Position numbers and translations under genes: made by a program. Of a DNA stretch of 41,168 nt, positions 2,452-35,300 are shown piece after piece. The stretch covers positions 1-41,168 of IMG/VR virus record IMGVR_UViG_3300032893_000130; one strand, given 5' to 3'. Every line of letters begins with the position of its first letter. Position 1 is the stretch's first letter. Under the pieces are notes generated by a model. The model had not been told where the DNA came from and searched no databases. It saw only the letters and a program-made list of their open reading frames with translations. Source of the stretch: a virus.

Positions 2452-2729
2452 TCGCCGGGCACCCGGACGATGCGCAAATAGACACCGCTATCGGTCACGA
2501 CAGTCCATTTGTACTGCCCCGGCGCCAGGTAGATTGTGTCACCGCCATCCGAGGAGAACGAATCCGTCATGGAGAGATAGGTCGTATCGTCAGGGCCGAG
2601 GACGTAGAGTGTCGCTGATCCCAAGGTGAACCCGGTAGCGAGCACCTGATAGATTCCGCCATTGAGTTGGATCGGGCCGTAATCGCCCGGCCCAACGTCC
2701 TGGTATGAGGAGGATTCACCTGCGCGCAT
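2448..2729 (-). CDS. Small beta-rich virion protein, paralogue of 16013-16342 (93 aa)
   Basis: The protein is beta-rich with no signal peptide. It shares an ordered set of motifs with the 109-aa protein at 16013-16342: GG-Y-V near residue 25, LGPDDTTYL near 45, SSDGGDTIYLAPGQYK near 60-75 and a VY...RVP ending. The two are therefore paralogues within one late operon, about 13 kb apart. The fold is probably a small beta-sandwich on the virion surface. Upstream is the Rz/Rz1 pair and downstream the 62-aa gene and tail fibre. Exact function is unknown. Confidence 0.7.
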   Translation of the reverse strand: MRAGESSSYQDVGPGDYGPIQLNGGIYQVLATGFTLGSATLYVLGPDDTTYLSMTDSFSSDGGDTIYLAPGQYKWTVVTDSGVYLRIVRVPGE

Positions 2730-2767
2730 GAGGTCATCCTAGCAACAAAATTGCCGGGAAAGCAACC

Positions 2768-3301
2768 CTACGGTTGGGCCGCTTTCTGCGCGGTGATCCA
2801 ACCCTGAACGGCCGTCAGTTGCTCGGCGTTGCCTTCGGCGGCGCTGTAATTGGCGAGGATGGCTTGTGCCAGAGCATTGGCGTCAACGGGCGCGCAGGCG
2901 TCATCAGATTGGCCGGCGGGGAGGGGTAGGGCGTCAGGACCGGTTTGTAGGACACTGGCGTCGAGCACGCGCACAAGGCCAAAAGGAATGCAGGGCAGAG
3001 CTTTGTCATGGACATAGACGGGCACCTTCTCGGTTATGACTTGGTGGACGGTCACGATCTTCTGTTGCGCGGCGGCTTCGGCCACGGCGGCCTTTAGGGA
3101 TTCGGCATCGGCGGACTTGACCGCCTTGTTCTGGAGATCGAGCGCGGCGGCATAATCCTTGGCGTCGGCAAGTTGTACGGCCAGGACTTTCGATTCCTCG
3201 AAATGATAGGTGGCATAACCGCCCGCGGCAGCGCATGAGACACCCAGGAGGACATAGCCCCATAGGCCATTCAGGAACGATGCAACTGGAGCCCACCACA
3301 T
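2768..3301 (-). CDS. Rz: Rz-like inner-membrane spanin subunit (177 aa)
   Basis: The start is ATG at 3301, preceded by GGAGG five bases away; longer readings upstream lack this site. The N-terminus has one membrane span (about residues 5-30, LNGLWGYVLLGVSCAAAGGYA) followed by a long Ala/Lys/Glu helix (35-85) and a proline-containing periplasmic part, the i-spanin layout. It links the inner membrane to Rz1 so that the outer membrane fuses and the cell bursts. Support comes from the neighbours: two holin-like proteins directly upstream and a lipoprotein ORF embedded in another frame. The protein is longer than lambda Rz (153 aa), with an extra Ala/Gln-rich C-terminus. Confidence 0.8.
   Translation of the reverse strand: MWWAPVASFLNGLWGYVLLGVSCAAAGGYATYHFEESKVLAVQLADAKDYAAALDLQNKAVKSADAESLKAAVAEAAAQQKIVTVHQVITEKVPVYVHDKALPCIPFGLVRVLDASVLQTGPDALPLPAGQSDDACAPVDANALAQAILANYSAAEGNAEQLTAVQGWITAQKAAQP
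2815..3015 (-). CDS. Rz1: Rz1-like outer-membrane lipoprotein spanin, embedded in Rz (66 aa)
   Basis: This gene is read in a different frame entirely inside Rz. The N-terminus MSMTKLCPAFLLALCAC is a short signal peptide ending in a lipobox-like LCAC, which would make the last Cys the lipidated residue. The mature part is proline-rich (STPVSYKPVLTPYPSPPAN), as expected of Rz1 o-spanins. Nested Rz/Rz1 arrangements are well known in lambda-like phages, so the embedding supports the call. Translation may start at M1 or M3. Confidence 0.8.
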   Translation of the reverse strand: MSMTKLCPAFLLALCACSTPVSYKPVLTPYPSPPANLMTPARPLTPMLWHKPSSPITAPPKATPSN

Positions 3302-3302
3302 A

Positions 3303-3539
3303 TCAGCCTCCCATTTTTGCCTTGATACCGGCGCCAGCGCCCACGGCACCGGCAATCGCGGCCACGCCCGTACCGAATGCCATTGGATCGAACATGCCGT
3401 GTGCGATCGCCATATAGACAGAATTGCCCGTCAGGGTCAAGAAACCGCCCGCGCCGATGACACGCACCGGGCAGAATATGGAGTTGGCGTCATCCTCGGT
3501 GAGGAGATCGCAAAAGAATTTCTTGGCCCCGGCCAGCAT
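3303..3539 (-). CDS. Holin-like membrane protein (78 aa)
   Basis: The N-terminus is charged (AGAKKFFCDLLTEDD), followed by a first hydrophobic stretch (about residues 27-45, VRVIGAGGFLTLTGNSVYMAI) and a Gly/Ala-rich second span (about 53-73), ending KAKMGG. The size, two spans and position directly before Rz suit a class II holin. The neighbour at 3544-3726 is also small and membrane-bound, so which of the two makes the lethal lesion cannot be decided from sequence. Confidence 0.6.
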   Translation of the reverse strand: MLAGAKKFFCDLLTEDDANSIFCPVRVIGAGGFLTLTGNSVYMAIAHGMFDPMAFGTGVAAIAGAVGAGAGIKAKMGG

Positions 3540-3543
3540 CGTT

Positions 3544-3726
3544 TTAGTCCCCTTCGGGATACCCGAGCCATTTCTGGACGGTCTTGCTCTCGTAGATCAT
3601 GAAGCACATCCACACGATGCCGACGACGAGCGACACGAATTGCAGGAATCCATTGAGCGTGAAGCCGCCGAGAAAGGCCGCCAAGGCACCGCAGAAGGAA
3701 GCTGGGTGGTGTGAGACCGAGTGCAT
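3544..3726 (-). CDS. Small membrane protein of the lysis cassette (60 aa)
   Basis: The protein has two hydrophobic segments (about residues 11-24 and 28-47, the latter FLQFVSLVVGIVWMCFMIY) and an ESKTVQKWLGYPEGD charged tail. It is spaced four bases from the next holin-like gene. It is likely a holin or antiholin partner by location and topology; no family is recognised by name. Confidence 0.55.
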   Translation of the reverse strand: MHSVSHHPASFCGALAAFLGGFTLNGFLQFVSLVVGIVWMCFMIYESKTVQKWLGYPEGD

Positions 3727-32958: not shown

Positions 32959-34158
32959 ATGACCGACCAAGCCCACAGTCCGAAGGGAGCATCGTCCGCT
33001 GAGCGGTGGCTTCATTGCCCCGGCTCGTCGGTGCTGCTCGCGCAGTTGAAACTTCCCGAGACGGACGAGCCCGATTACCGCGGGCTCGGCACCGGCGCGC
33101 ACGAAGCTGCTGCCAAGTGCCTGCTCGAAGGGATCGACAGTTGGGAGATCGTTGGCGAGCGCTTCCACGGCTTCGAGTTGGGCGAGCCCGGCAAGTGCGC
33201 CGAGGGTAAGGAGCGCATCGACTTCAATGCCGTGCAGATGTATGTCAACGACGCGCGCCAGTTTATGACGAACAGCGCGACGGTCTACATCGAGCGGCGC
33301 ATCGGTGAAGACCCCGAGAAACGTCCACACCCGGACTTCTACGGCACCGTGGACTTCGCGGCCTATGACACCAACGAGACGATCGTGGAGGACTTCAAGT
33401 ATGGCGAAGGCATCGTGGTCGAGCCGGAGTGGAATGAGCAGATGCTCTACTACGCCTACGGTATCCTCATATCGCGTCCATCCGTTCGGTCTGACCGCGT
33501 GGTCCGCCTTCGCATATGTCAGCCGCGAGCTTTTCATGTTGATGGTCCAATTCGCGAGTGGGAAATTACGGCTGGCGAGATTATCCATTGGGGTGAGACT
33601 GTCCTGATCCCGGCGATGAACGCGGCCGAGATCGATAATGATTTCGACGCAGGCTCCTGGTGCCGGTTCTGTCCGGCGAAACTGTTCTGCCCGCTGCTCT
33701 CCGGCATCTTCGGCGCGGCAGCGAAGGCCGATCCCGCAGCGCTTCCGAACTTCAGCAACAAGCGGATCGGGCTGGAGTATCAGCAACGCGACGCCGTGAA
33801 GTTTTACATGCAGGCGCTCGAAGCGGAAGCCTACCGCCGCCTGATGACGGGCGCGGAAGTCCAGGGCATCAAGCTGGTCAACAAGAAATCCAACCGCGTG
33901 TGGAAGGAAGGCGCTCCGGCGATCTTCGCGGAACGCTTCGGGCAGGATGCCTACACGCCCGCCGAGATCAAGACGCCAGCCGAGATGGAGCGCGTCAGTC
34001 CCGACGCCAAGAAACTCGTGGCGGAATTTGCCTATCACCCCAACACCGGGTTCACTGTCGCGCTCGCCGATGACAGACGCCAAGCGGTAAAGATAGAGAA
34101 GGTTGAAGACACTTTTGCGCACATGATTCCAAAGGATGATGCGGATGCCGCATCGTGA
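32959..34158 (+). CDS. DUF2800 protein, Cas4-like PD-(D/E)XK nuclease (399 aa)
   Basis: The motif HSPKGASSAERWLHCPGSS (residues 6-24), then TGAHEAAAKCLL, is the DUF2800 N-terminal signature. A PD-(D/E)XK-type core is visible as YGTVDFAAYD near 129-138 and ETIVEDFKYGEG near 141-152. SWCRFCPAKLFCP near 234-246 supplies Cys residues as in Cas4/AddB iron-sulfur clusters. Similar genes lie beside DUF2815 and family A polymerase in many phages and are thought to be recombination exonucleases. The last ~20 codons (from Asp372) are duplicated downstream inside the following HNH gene, so this gene appears to have received a replacement 3' end. Its final residues (PKDDADAAS) differ from the tail attached to the HNH. 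Confidence 0.88.
   Translation: MTDQAHSPKGASSAERWLHCPGSSVLLAQLKLPETDEPDYRGLGTGAHEAAAKCLLEGIDSWEIVGERFHGFELGEPGKCAEGKERIDFNAVQMYVNDARQFMTNSATVYIERRIGEDPEKRPHPDFYGTVDFAAYDTNETIVEDFKYGEGIVVEPEWNEQMLYYAYGILISRPSVRSDRVVRLRICQPRAFHVDGPIREWEITAGEIIHWGETVLIPAMNAAEIDNDFDAGSWCRFCPAKLFCPLLSGIFGAAAKADPAALPNFSNKRIGLEYQQRDAVKFYMQALEAEAYRRLMTGAEVQGIKLVNKKSNRVWKEGAPAIFAERFGQDAYTPAEIKTPAEMERVSPDAKKLVAEFAYHPNTGFTVALADDRRQAVKIEKVEDTFAHMIPKDDADAAS
34072..34131 (+). repeat. Direct repeat copy A, end of DUF2800 gene
   Basis: The 60 bases 34072-34131 encode DRRQAVKIEKVEDTFAHMIP and align with 34541-34600 (43 of 60 bases, 18 of 20 residues). Most differences fall at third codon positions. Confidence 0.9.
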
Positions 34159-34630
34159 TCCTTTAGTCCGCAGAGCGTATGCTACGACTTATATGAGAGA
34201 TTGGAGAAAACGAAACCCGCAAAAAGTTTTGGCATCCGCTAGGAAAGAAAACAAAGATGTGCGCAGAAAAATCTCTCGGAAATCAGCCCTAAAGATACAC
34301 TTTGGACTTTCGGTGTCTGATTACGACAGCCTTCTTATAGAGCAGCGAGGGGTATGCGCAATATGCAAACACTCGGCCTCGGATTTGGAACTCTCTTGCT
34401 TGTCAGTGGATCACTGCCACATGACAAACAAGGTTCGTGAGCTTCTTTGTCGGCACTGTAACCTCCTCTTAGGATATGCCGCAGACAATATCACGATACT
34501 ACAAGAGGCGATCGTCTATCTGAGAAAACACCTTGACAGCGATCGCCGGCAGGCAGTAAAGGTGGAGAAGGTCGAAGATGTCTTCGCCCACATGATACCG
34601 CCTGATTCAACCCTCACAAATGGAGACTGA
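34136..34630 (+). CDS. HNH endonuclease VII-type homing endonuclease, fused to a DUF2800 tail (164 aa)
   Basis: Residues 74-108 carry the recombination endonuclease VII pattern: CAIC (74-77), LSVDHCH (89-95) with the D/H catalytic site, ELLCRHCN (102-109) with the second zinc-binding Cys pair, followed by LLLGYAADNITILQEAIVYL. This is typical of free-standing phage homing endonucleases. The start at ATG 34136 overlaps the DUF2800 stop by 23 bases (34139 or 34145 are possible). The segment is clearly less GC-rich than the genes on both sides, consistent with recent acquisition. Residues 136-155 repeat the C-terminal segment of DUF2800 almost exactly, so the HNH coding region has landed within that gene and kept its old 3' end as a fusion tail. 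Confidence 0.85.
   Translation: MMRMPHRDPLVRRAYATTYMRDWRKRNPQKVLASARKENKDVRRKISRKSALKIHFGLSVSDYDSLLIEQRGVCAICKHSASDLELSCLSVDHCHMTNKVRELLCRHCNLLLGYAADNITILQEAIVYLRKHLDSDRRQAVKVEKVEDVFAHMIPPDSTLTNGD
34541..34600 (+). repeat. Direct repeat copy B, end of HNH gene
   Basis: Bases 34541-34600 encode DRRQAVKVEKVEDVFAHMIP in frame with the HNH. This copy directly precedes the ribosome site of the DUF2815 gene, as the ancestral end of DUF2800 would have done. Confidence 0.9.
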
Positions 34631-34631
34631 C

Positions 34632-35300
34632 ATGACTGACAAGAAAGTATCCGGCGCCGGTTACACGTTCGTCGAGAAGGTTCGCGCCCCCTTCGTCACC
34701 CTCGTCACCCCGCAGAAGGTCGGCAAGAAAGGCCAGGAGAAAGGCGATCCCGTCTACTCCCTGACGGTGCTGTTGCCTGCCGCAAGCCCGGACCTCAAGA
34801 ACCTCAAGGCCAAAATGGCCGAAGTGGCGCGCGAGATGTGGCCCGGACGAGCATTGTCCGAACTAAAGTTCCCGATCTCGAACGGCGACCAGGAGGCCGA
34901 GAAGGCCACGGCCGCAGGCAAGGACGGCGCCTTCTTCAAGGGCATGGCAGTGTTCCGCGCCCGCTCCGGCGCCGACAAGCCGCCAGCGCTCGCCGTGCTG
35001 GAAGGCATCAAGATCGTCGAACTCGCCGGCCAGCAACGCGAGATCGTCGGCAAGCAGAAGTTTTATAACGGCTGCTATGTCGTGCCGTCCGTGTGGCTGG
35101 TTCCGTACAAGAGCAGCAAGGAAGGCGGCATCGGTGAGTTCAGCGGCATCAAGGCGTATGTCGGCTCGGTCCTGTGGGCCGGTGACGGCGAACGCATCGG
35201 CGGCGCCAGTGCGGCCGAGACCTTCCGTGCCTATGCCGGCGCGGTAAGCGACGAAGACCCGACCGCTGGCGGATCGTCGGACGACGAGATTCCGTTCTAG
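34632..35300 (+). CDS. DUF2815 / Enc34-type single-stranded DNA-binding protein (222 aa)
   Basis: ATG 34632 follows GGAG within the HNH stop region; ATG 34620 is in frame but lacks a site. The protein begins MTDKKVSGAGYTFVEKVRAP and has APFVTLVTPQKVGKKG, FFKGMAVFRARSGADKPPAL and FYNGCYVVPSVWLVPYK, the pattern of the DUF2815 family shown structurally for phage Enc34 to be an OB-fold ssDNA-binding protein. The acidic C-terminus SSDDEIPF resembles the protein-docking tip of bacterial SSB. It coats single strands during replication and may recruit partners through its tip. Confidence 0.88.
   Translation: MTDKKVSGAGYTFVEKVRAPFVTLVTPQKVGKKGQEKGDPVYSLTVLLPAASPDLKNLKAKMAEVAREMWPGRALSELKFPISNGDQEAEKATAAGKDGAFFKGMAVFRARSGADKPPALAVLEGIKIVELAGQQREIVGKQKFYNGCYVVPSVWLVPYKSSKEGGIGEFSGIKAYVGSVLWAGDGERIGGASAAETFRAYAGAVSDEDPTAGGSSDDEIPF

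Follow-up and report, generated by a model that had tools for sequence, protein, structure and literature searches.

A candidate homing endonuclease at the 3′ end of a phage exonuclease gene, with the probable old end of that gene as its own C-terminus

Gene content of the DUF2800 locus

The window, the whole 41,168-nt stretch of viral DNA that we analysed (IMG/VR record IMGVR_UViG_3300032893_000130), carries on its + strand the consecutive genes DUF2800, HNH and SSB, together with two copies of the DUF2800 gene end. The features of the locus are as follows.

32959..34158, + strand: DUF2800, the putatively invaded gene (PF10926, E = 9e-52; phrog_69 exonuclease, E = 2e-72)
34072..34155 (core 34072-34131), + strand: copy A, the DUF2800 C-terminal tail, read as an imported replacement
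34136..34630, + strand: EndoVII-type HNH gene, 164 aa (PF02945, E = 1e-19; phrog_2914, E = 2e-30)
34289..34528, + strand: HNH catalytic domain (PF02945, residues 52-131, profile positions 4-82 of 82)
34541..34600, + strand: copy B, read as the old DUF2800 tail in its native position, captured in frame by the HNH gene
34619..34626, + strand: AATGGAGA motif at the start of the SSB gene, conserved behind the sole tail of empty-site relatives
34620..35300, + strand: Enc34-like ssDNA-binding protein (SSB, DUF2815; PF10991, E = 9e-20; phrog_112, E = 5e-22)

Profile matches identify DUF2800 as a phage exonuclease, PD-(D/E)XK-like, and the Pfam family DUF2815 is now called Enc34_ssDNA-bd (PF10991). 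The SSB gene, which starts at 34620 or 34633 and ends at 35300, is the native downstream neighbour of DUF2800 and likewise comes after it in close relatives. The HNH gene lies between the two, its start overlapping the end of DUF2800 by 23 nt, with the DUF2800 stop codon falling early within it, and its C-terminus is copy B. DUF2800 thus has its own stop, and a search of positions 33700-35000 gave no Rfam match for a group I intron up to E = 1, so that the locus holds no recognised group I intron, in line with its first description as intron-free.

The HNH protein is a candidate free-standing homing endonuclease. Its catalytic residues D92, H93, H95, R101 and N109 and its zinc residues C74, C77, C105 and C108 are invariant across 13 relatives. 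The structure model is confident to approximately residue 135, beyond which pLDDT is 51-54, and the captured tail starts just at the end of the catalytic domain. Modelled outside the fold, the tail appears to have no evident role in the HNH enzyme.

The two copies of the DUF2800 end

The core of copy A encodes DRRQAVKIEKVEDTFAHMIP (34072-34131), corresponding to DUF2800 residues 372-391, while copy B encodes DRRQAVKVEKVEDVFAHMIP (34541-34600) in frame at the HNH C-terminus. The first-pass annotation had reported this in-frame copy, with 43 of 60 nucleotides and 18 of 20 amino acids identical and with mostly silent changes, and all of this holds: the counts are exact on recount, 13 of the 17 nucleotide differences lie at third codon positions, and 12 of the 17 fall in codons for the same amino acid. 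Copy B is recovered at E = 1.2e-7 in a tblastn search of DUF2800 against its own record, and the comparison of the upstream gene end with the HNH end gives a score of 103, whereas no more than 34 was reached in 5,967 mismatched pairs. The resemblance probably begins about three codons upstream of the core (LDS-DRRQ); the region just before the tail core reads LES-DRRQ or RES-DRRG in relatives. Copy A lies almost wholly beyond residue 375, the last of the DUF2800 Pfam domain.

It had further been proposed that the insertion supplied a recoded replacement tail. Replacement is supported by position and by the parallel cases described below. Purposeful recoding of copy A was considered and is not needed: 6 of the 17 degenerate codons shared by the two copies are identical, which fits the 8.4 expected from independent draws under phage codon usage and is not far from DUF2800 orthologs, in which 44-55% of shared degenerate codons are identical. 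Recoding is therefore not indicated, because the silent differences do not exceed ordinary ortholog saturation, and a donor ortholog with saturated silent sites would be enough to account for copy A. The diverged sequence of copy A may still block recutting. Third-position GC was rejected as proof that copy A is foreign, since it also drops there in the empty-site relative L003; 7% of 20-codon windows in the body of the host gene have values as low, and the lower third-position GC of copy A is at best a weak sign of foreign origin.

Empty sites and the native position of copy B

If the endonuclease was inserted, related phages should retain sites with a single DUF2800 tail directly before the SSB gene, as the first-pass annotation had predicted. 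Two such empty sites were found, L002 (58% identity) and L003 (59%), in which one DUF2800 tail runs straight into the SSB gene and whose records hold no PF02945 or EndoVII-type gene. The HNH gene is also absent between the conserved genes in L007 and L009, and is present in the window and in L001. The AATGGAGA motif follows the single tail in L002 and L003, copy B in the window and the leftover tail in L001; it is absent after copy A. Because the motif follows copy B and never copy A, copy B occupies the native position and copy A and the HNH gene form the added part, which agrees with the earlier placement of copy B where the original DUF2800 end belongs. Nucleotide comparison with the nearest empty allele, L002, places the two window copies equally close (39/60 nt for copy A, 38/60 nt for copy B), so the polarity of the window rests on position and on the parallel cases, from which we infer that copy A was imported. 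A degenerate tail pattern search gave no match to a donor phage with a copy A-like tail.

The relative L001 (75% identity in DUF2800) carries an HNH gene at the same place as the window. Its DUF2800 ends in IVQPIADVFAHMIPADEEV, and an orphan in-frame tail, VDKTADIFAHMIPADDDPAVG, stands directly behind the TAG stop codon of the HNH gene. Compared with the empty site in L002, the orphan tail matches at 30/36 nt and the working tail at 25/36 nt. In a tree of 140 HNH domains, the window HNH is sister to that of L085 (support 0.70) and the L001 HNH to that of L136 (0.79), both supports being moderate. Since the two HNHs belong to different clades, the window and L001 insertions are probably separate, and the DUF2800 site has probably received two independent insertions.

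At the same locus in L021 (4130-4371), a 42-bp repeat, 98% identical, spans the DUF2800 end and the next start site and flanks a 67-aa non-HNH ORF whose own last 13 residues are those of DUF2800. We read this, from the sequence, as a recent tail duplication without an endonuclease, and tail duplication at this locus accordingly does not require one.

Recurrence among EndoVII-type HNH genes

To place the window among other loci, gene ends around EndoVII-type HNH genes were compared, the genes being fetched regardless of their neighbours. The survey covered 130 HNH ORFs with a usable upstream gene, and the 5,967 mismatched pairs of upstream end and HNH end served as the null. An in-frame copy of the end of the upstream gene was found at the HNH end in 4 of the 130 ORFs, with scores of 52-112 compared with the null maximum of 34.

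L299: phrog_3704 protein, KWGRLGECDDYFW..., score 112
Window: DUF2800, score 103
L258: psbA, LAAASTTPVAMTAPSIG, score 80
L304: upstream protein of unknown kind, LGG[RK]FHHKP, score 52

The tail copies of L299 and L304 differ mainly by silent changes, as in the window. In L258 (positions 1-1800), a cyanophage-type contig, the last >50 nt of psbA recur without any change at the end of the HNH gene behind it, and psbA is preceded by a PhotoRC-II RNA. The psbA-HNH pairs of S-PM2, S-B05 and S-H68 have no psbA tail copy. With L001 included, the tail is in frame with the HNH in 5 of 5 cases, for which the chance expectation is (1/3)^5 = 0.004, and in every case the captured tail starts immediately past the end of the HNH domain or no more than a few residues from it. 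L299 can be compared with the isolate S-EIVl, which has no insertion: its leftover tail matches at 50/60 nt and its new tail at 44/60 nt.

In two further candidates, L129 and L079, the stretch in common with the end of the upstream gene is very short; their scores (26 and 28) lie below the null maximum of 34, and neither is included in the count. The flank repeats in L318, L277, L284 and L282 were set aside because they are entire paralogous tail genes, and they had also raised the null of a broad survey; in these four virus contigs the EndoVII-type HNH lies between paralogous tail-region genes of approximately 140-165 aa.

Counting cases of both the 3′ type and the 5′ type described below, there are six beyond the window and L001. 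Five involve other HNH lineages and host genes, and the sixth, L246, shares its HNH lineage with L139 and likewise lies at thyX. These cases make the history a recurrent pattern and, with the empty sites and L001, support the insertion and tail swap first proposed for this locus.

Mirror-image cases at gene starts

L139 has a 62-codon thyX start, then an HNH gene and then a full-length thyX. Its relatives L165 and L217 have thyX without the HNH, and in L165 the same upstream gene as in L139 stands directly before thyX. The leftover thyX N-terminus of L139 matches that of L217 at 43/46 aa and the working N-terminus at 27/46 aa, while the remaining 151 residues of the working thyX match at 115/151. 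As its start diverges from L217 while the remainder matches, the working thyX is a hybrid, and its start thus appears to have come from elsewhere, together with the endonuclease. L246 shows the same thyX pattern with a 48-codon relic. In L244 and L245 (approximately 2490-3600), whose HNHs are closely related to those of L139 and L246, the HNH gene overlaps the start of a full-length thyX and there is no relic, possibly the arrangement expected of a donor. L299 has an additional 5′-type case at its first HNH. In three loci that have empty-site relatives, L001, L299 and L139, it is thus the leftover copy that is native.

In L299 (1300-1335), 3′ of its first HNH, a stretch of 27 nt interrupts a DUF5872-like gene after a TCG codon; it starts with TAG, forms a perfect UAGCC-GUAA-GGCUA hairpin and ends with TCG, and the gene is uninterrupted in S-EIVl. 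The fold is not unusually stable (z -1.1). This interruption may resemble the translational bypass of T4 gene 60 next to mobA, or the gene may simply be broken.

Proposed mechanism and alternative explanations

On this evidence, we consider it probable (roughly 0.8) that an EndoVII-type HNH homing endonuclease entered the 3′ end of DUF2800 as a cassette comprised of a replacement tail and the endonuclease gene. The enzyme would break an endonuclease-free DUF2800 allele near codon 370, and a related phage with the endonuclease right behind its own DUF2800 would provide the repair template. Homologous copying on the left would bring in the donor tail (copy A) together with the endonuclease, whereas the join on the right would fall within the recipient tail and be made without homology. 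The old tail (copy B), along with its own stop codon and the start region of the SSB gene, would stay in place before that gene, and the endonuclease would come to read in frame into this tail. Such one-sided repair would account both for the foreign origin of one copy and for the native junction downstream of the other. DUF2800, read as a hybrid gene with an imported 3′ end, would remain intact though the insertion lies in its coding sequence, because a replacement tail is supplied.

An EndoVII-like resolvase or restriction-type nuclease gene might instead have been placed here by ordinary illegitimate recombination, without homing, given that the same domain is found in T4 endonuclease VII and in the restriction enzyme Hpy99I. 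This seems unlikely in view of the presence or absence of the gene between otherwise conserved neighbours, the two HNH lineages at one DUF2800 site, and the hybrid host genes, which point to break-driven conversion.

Somewhat less likely again is a plain local duplication of the tail and the SSB start region, with the HNH settling between the copies and the copies drifting silently under selection on the peptide. The L021 repeat around a small non-HNH ORF and the psbA copies of L258, identical over more than 50 consecutive nt, speak for such duplication. The silent sites of copies A and B, however, are saturated (6/17 identical, 8.4 expected), and drift to that point would call for selection of equal strength on a peptide that has no evident part to play in an HNH enzyme. 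The leftover copy in L001, although it stands after a stop codon, resembles the empty allele more than the coding copy does, and at the thyX duplication the affinity switches sharply.

That the HNH gained a tail like that of DUF2800 to serve a purpose of its own, such as binding a DUF2800 partner like SSB, is very improbable: 18 of 20 residues are kept and the tail lies outside the DUF2800 Pfam domain, where it could be a docking peptide, but captured tails come from unrelated hosts (the psbA D1 end, the phrog_3704 protein and an unknown protein), each matching its immediate upstream gene, the structure model puts the window tail outside the fold and gives it low confidence, and the L001 HNH lacks the tail owing to its stop codon.

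Returning to cassette insertion, we put at about even odds the broader proposal that phage EndoVII-type endonucleases act as natural home-and-rescue drives, repeatedly colonising coding sequences by means of a cut-resistant version of the end, 3′ or 5′, of the gene that they cut, often with the old end as their own C-terminus, which would let them spread through important genes without an intron or intein. Cassette insertion as such shows a way for a homing endonuclease to occupy the coding sequence of a replication gene without splicing, and the insertion itself then gives rise to hybrid genes and moves genes from phage to phage. Should the model hold, the leftover copy would show roughly where the cut was made, and the target of an uncharacterised endonuclease could be read from sequence.

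Comparison with known systems

One of the closest known systems is F-CphI of cyanophage S-PM2, a biochemically proven homing endonuclease of the EndoVII/DHHRN family that takes part in intronless and collaborative homing (PMC6083498). The two share the catalytic domain, and F-CphI is likewise a free-standing gene just 3′ of its conserved target, psbA. F-CphI self-protection is provided by a group I intron in psbA (PMC6083498), and there is no psbA tail copy, whereas in the window the replaced coding end would putatively protect instead.

Free-standing HNH endonucleases that split phage host genes are known from T4, with mobA in gene 39/60 (PMC2988022), and from Aeh1, with mobE in nrdA (PMC5009743). 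As far as the available portions of these two accounts go, they resemble the window in placing an HNH gene within the coding sequence of a phage gene for replication or nucleotide metabolism, and they differ in that the gene is split and no duplicated end is described, while DUF2800 is whole by virtue of its replacement end. The open-access literature yielded no description of the end-replacement form in phages, although absence is not thereby proven.

The strategy is not wholly new, since there is a precedent in fungal mitochondria, the mORFs of Allomyces macrogynus atp6 and of Glomus sp. atp6, atp9, cox2 and nad3 (PMC3630166). In these, an endonuclease ORF lies near the 3′ end of a gene, a foreign C-terminus replaces the native one, and the native C*-terminus is left downstream (PMC3630166). 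In Glomus atp6, identity between the two copies is 63.5% at the DNA level but 91% at the protein level; the native end left behind is nearest to a close relative, with a 91% match (PMC3630166). The window has the same in-frame tail on the host gene, endonuclease ORF and second tail downstream. It differs in that the mitochondrial endonucleases are LAGLIDADG or GIY-YIG, as opposed to an EndoVII-type HNH in a phage, and in that the old tail in the phage serves as the in-frame C-terminus of the endonuclease; the phage pattern also has mirror-image forms at the starts of genes. Phage end-replacement may thus be seen, from sequence comparison, as a variant of a process previously well described only in fungal mitochondria.

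Synthetic home-and-rescue (HomeR) drives combine a homing element in an important gene with a rescuing, differently encoded copy (PMC7968924). They are engineered and use Cas9, and their likeness to the phage case is an analogy only. On the reading favoured here, phage mobile genes are connected with a phenomenon of mitochondria, described first in Allomyces, and with the principle behind engineered rescue drives.
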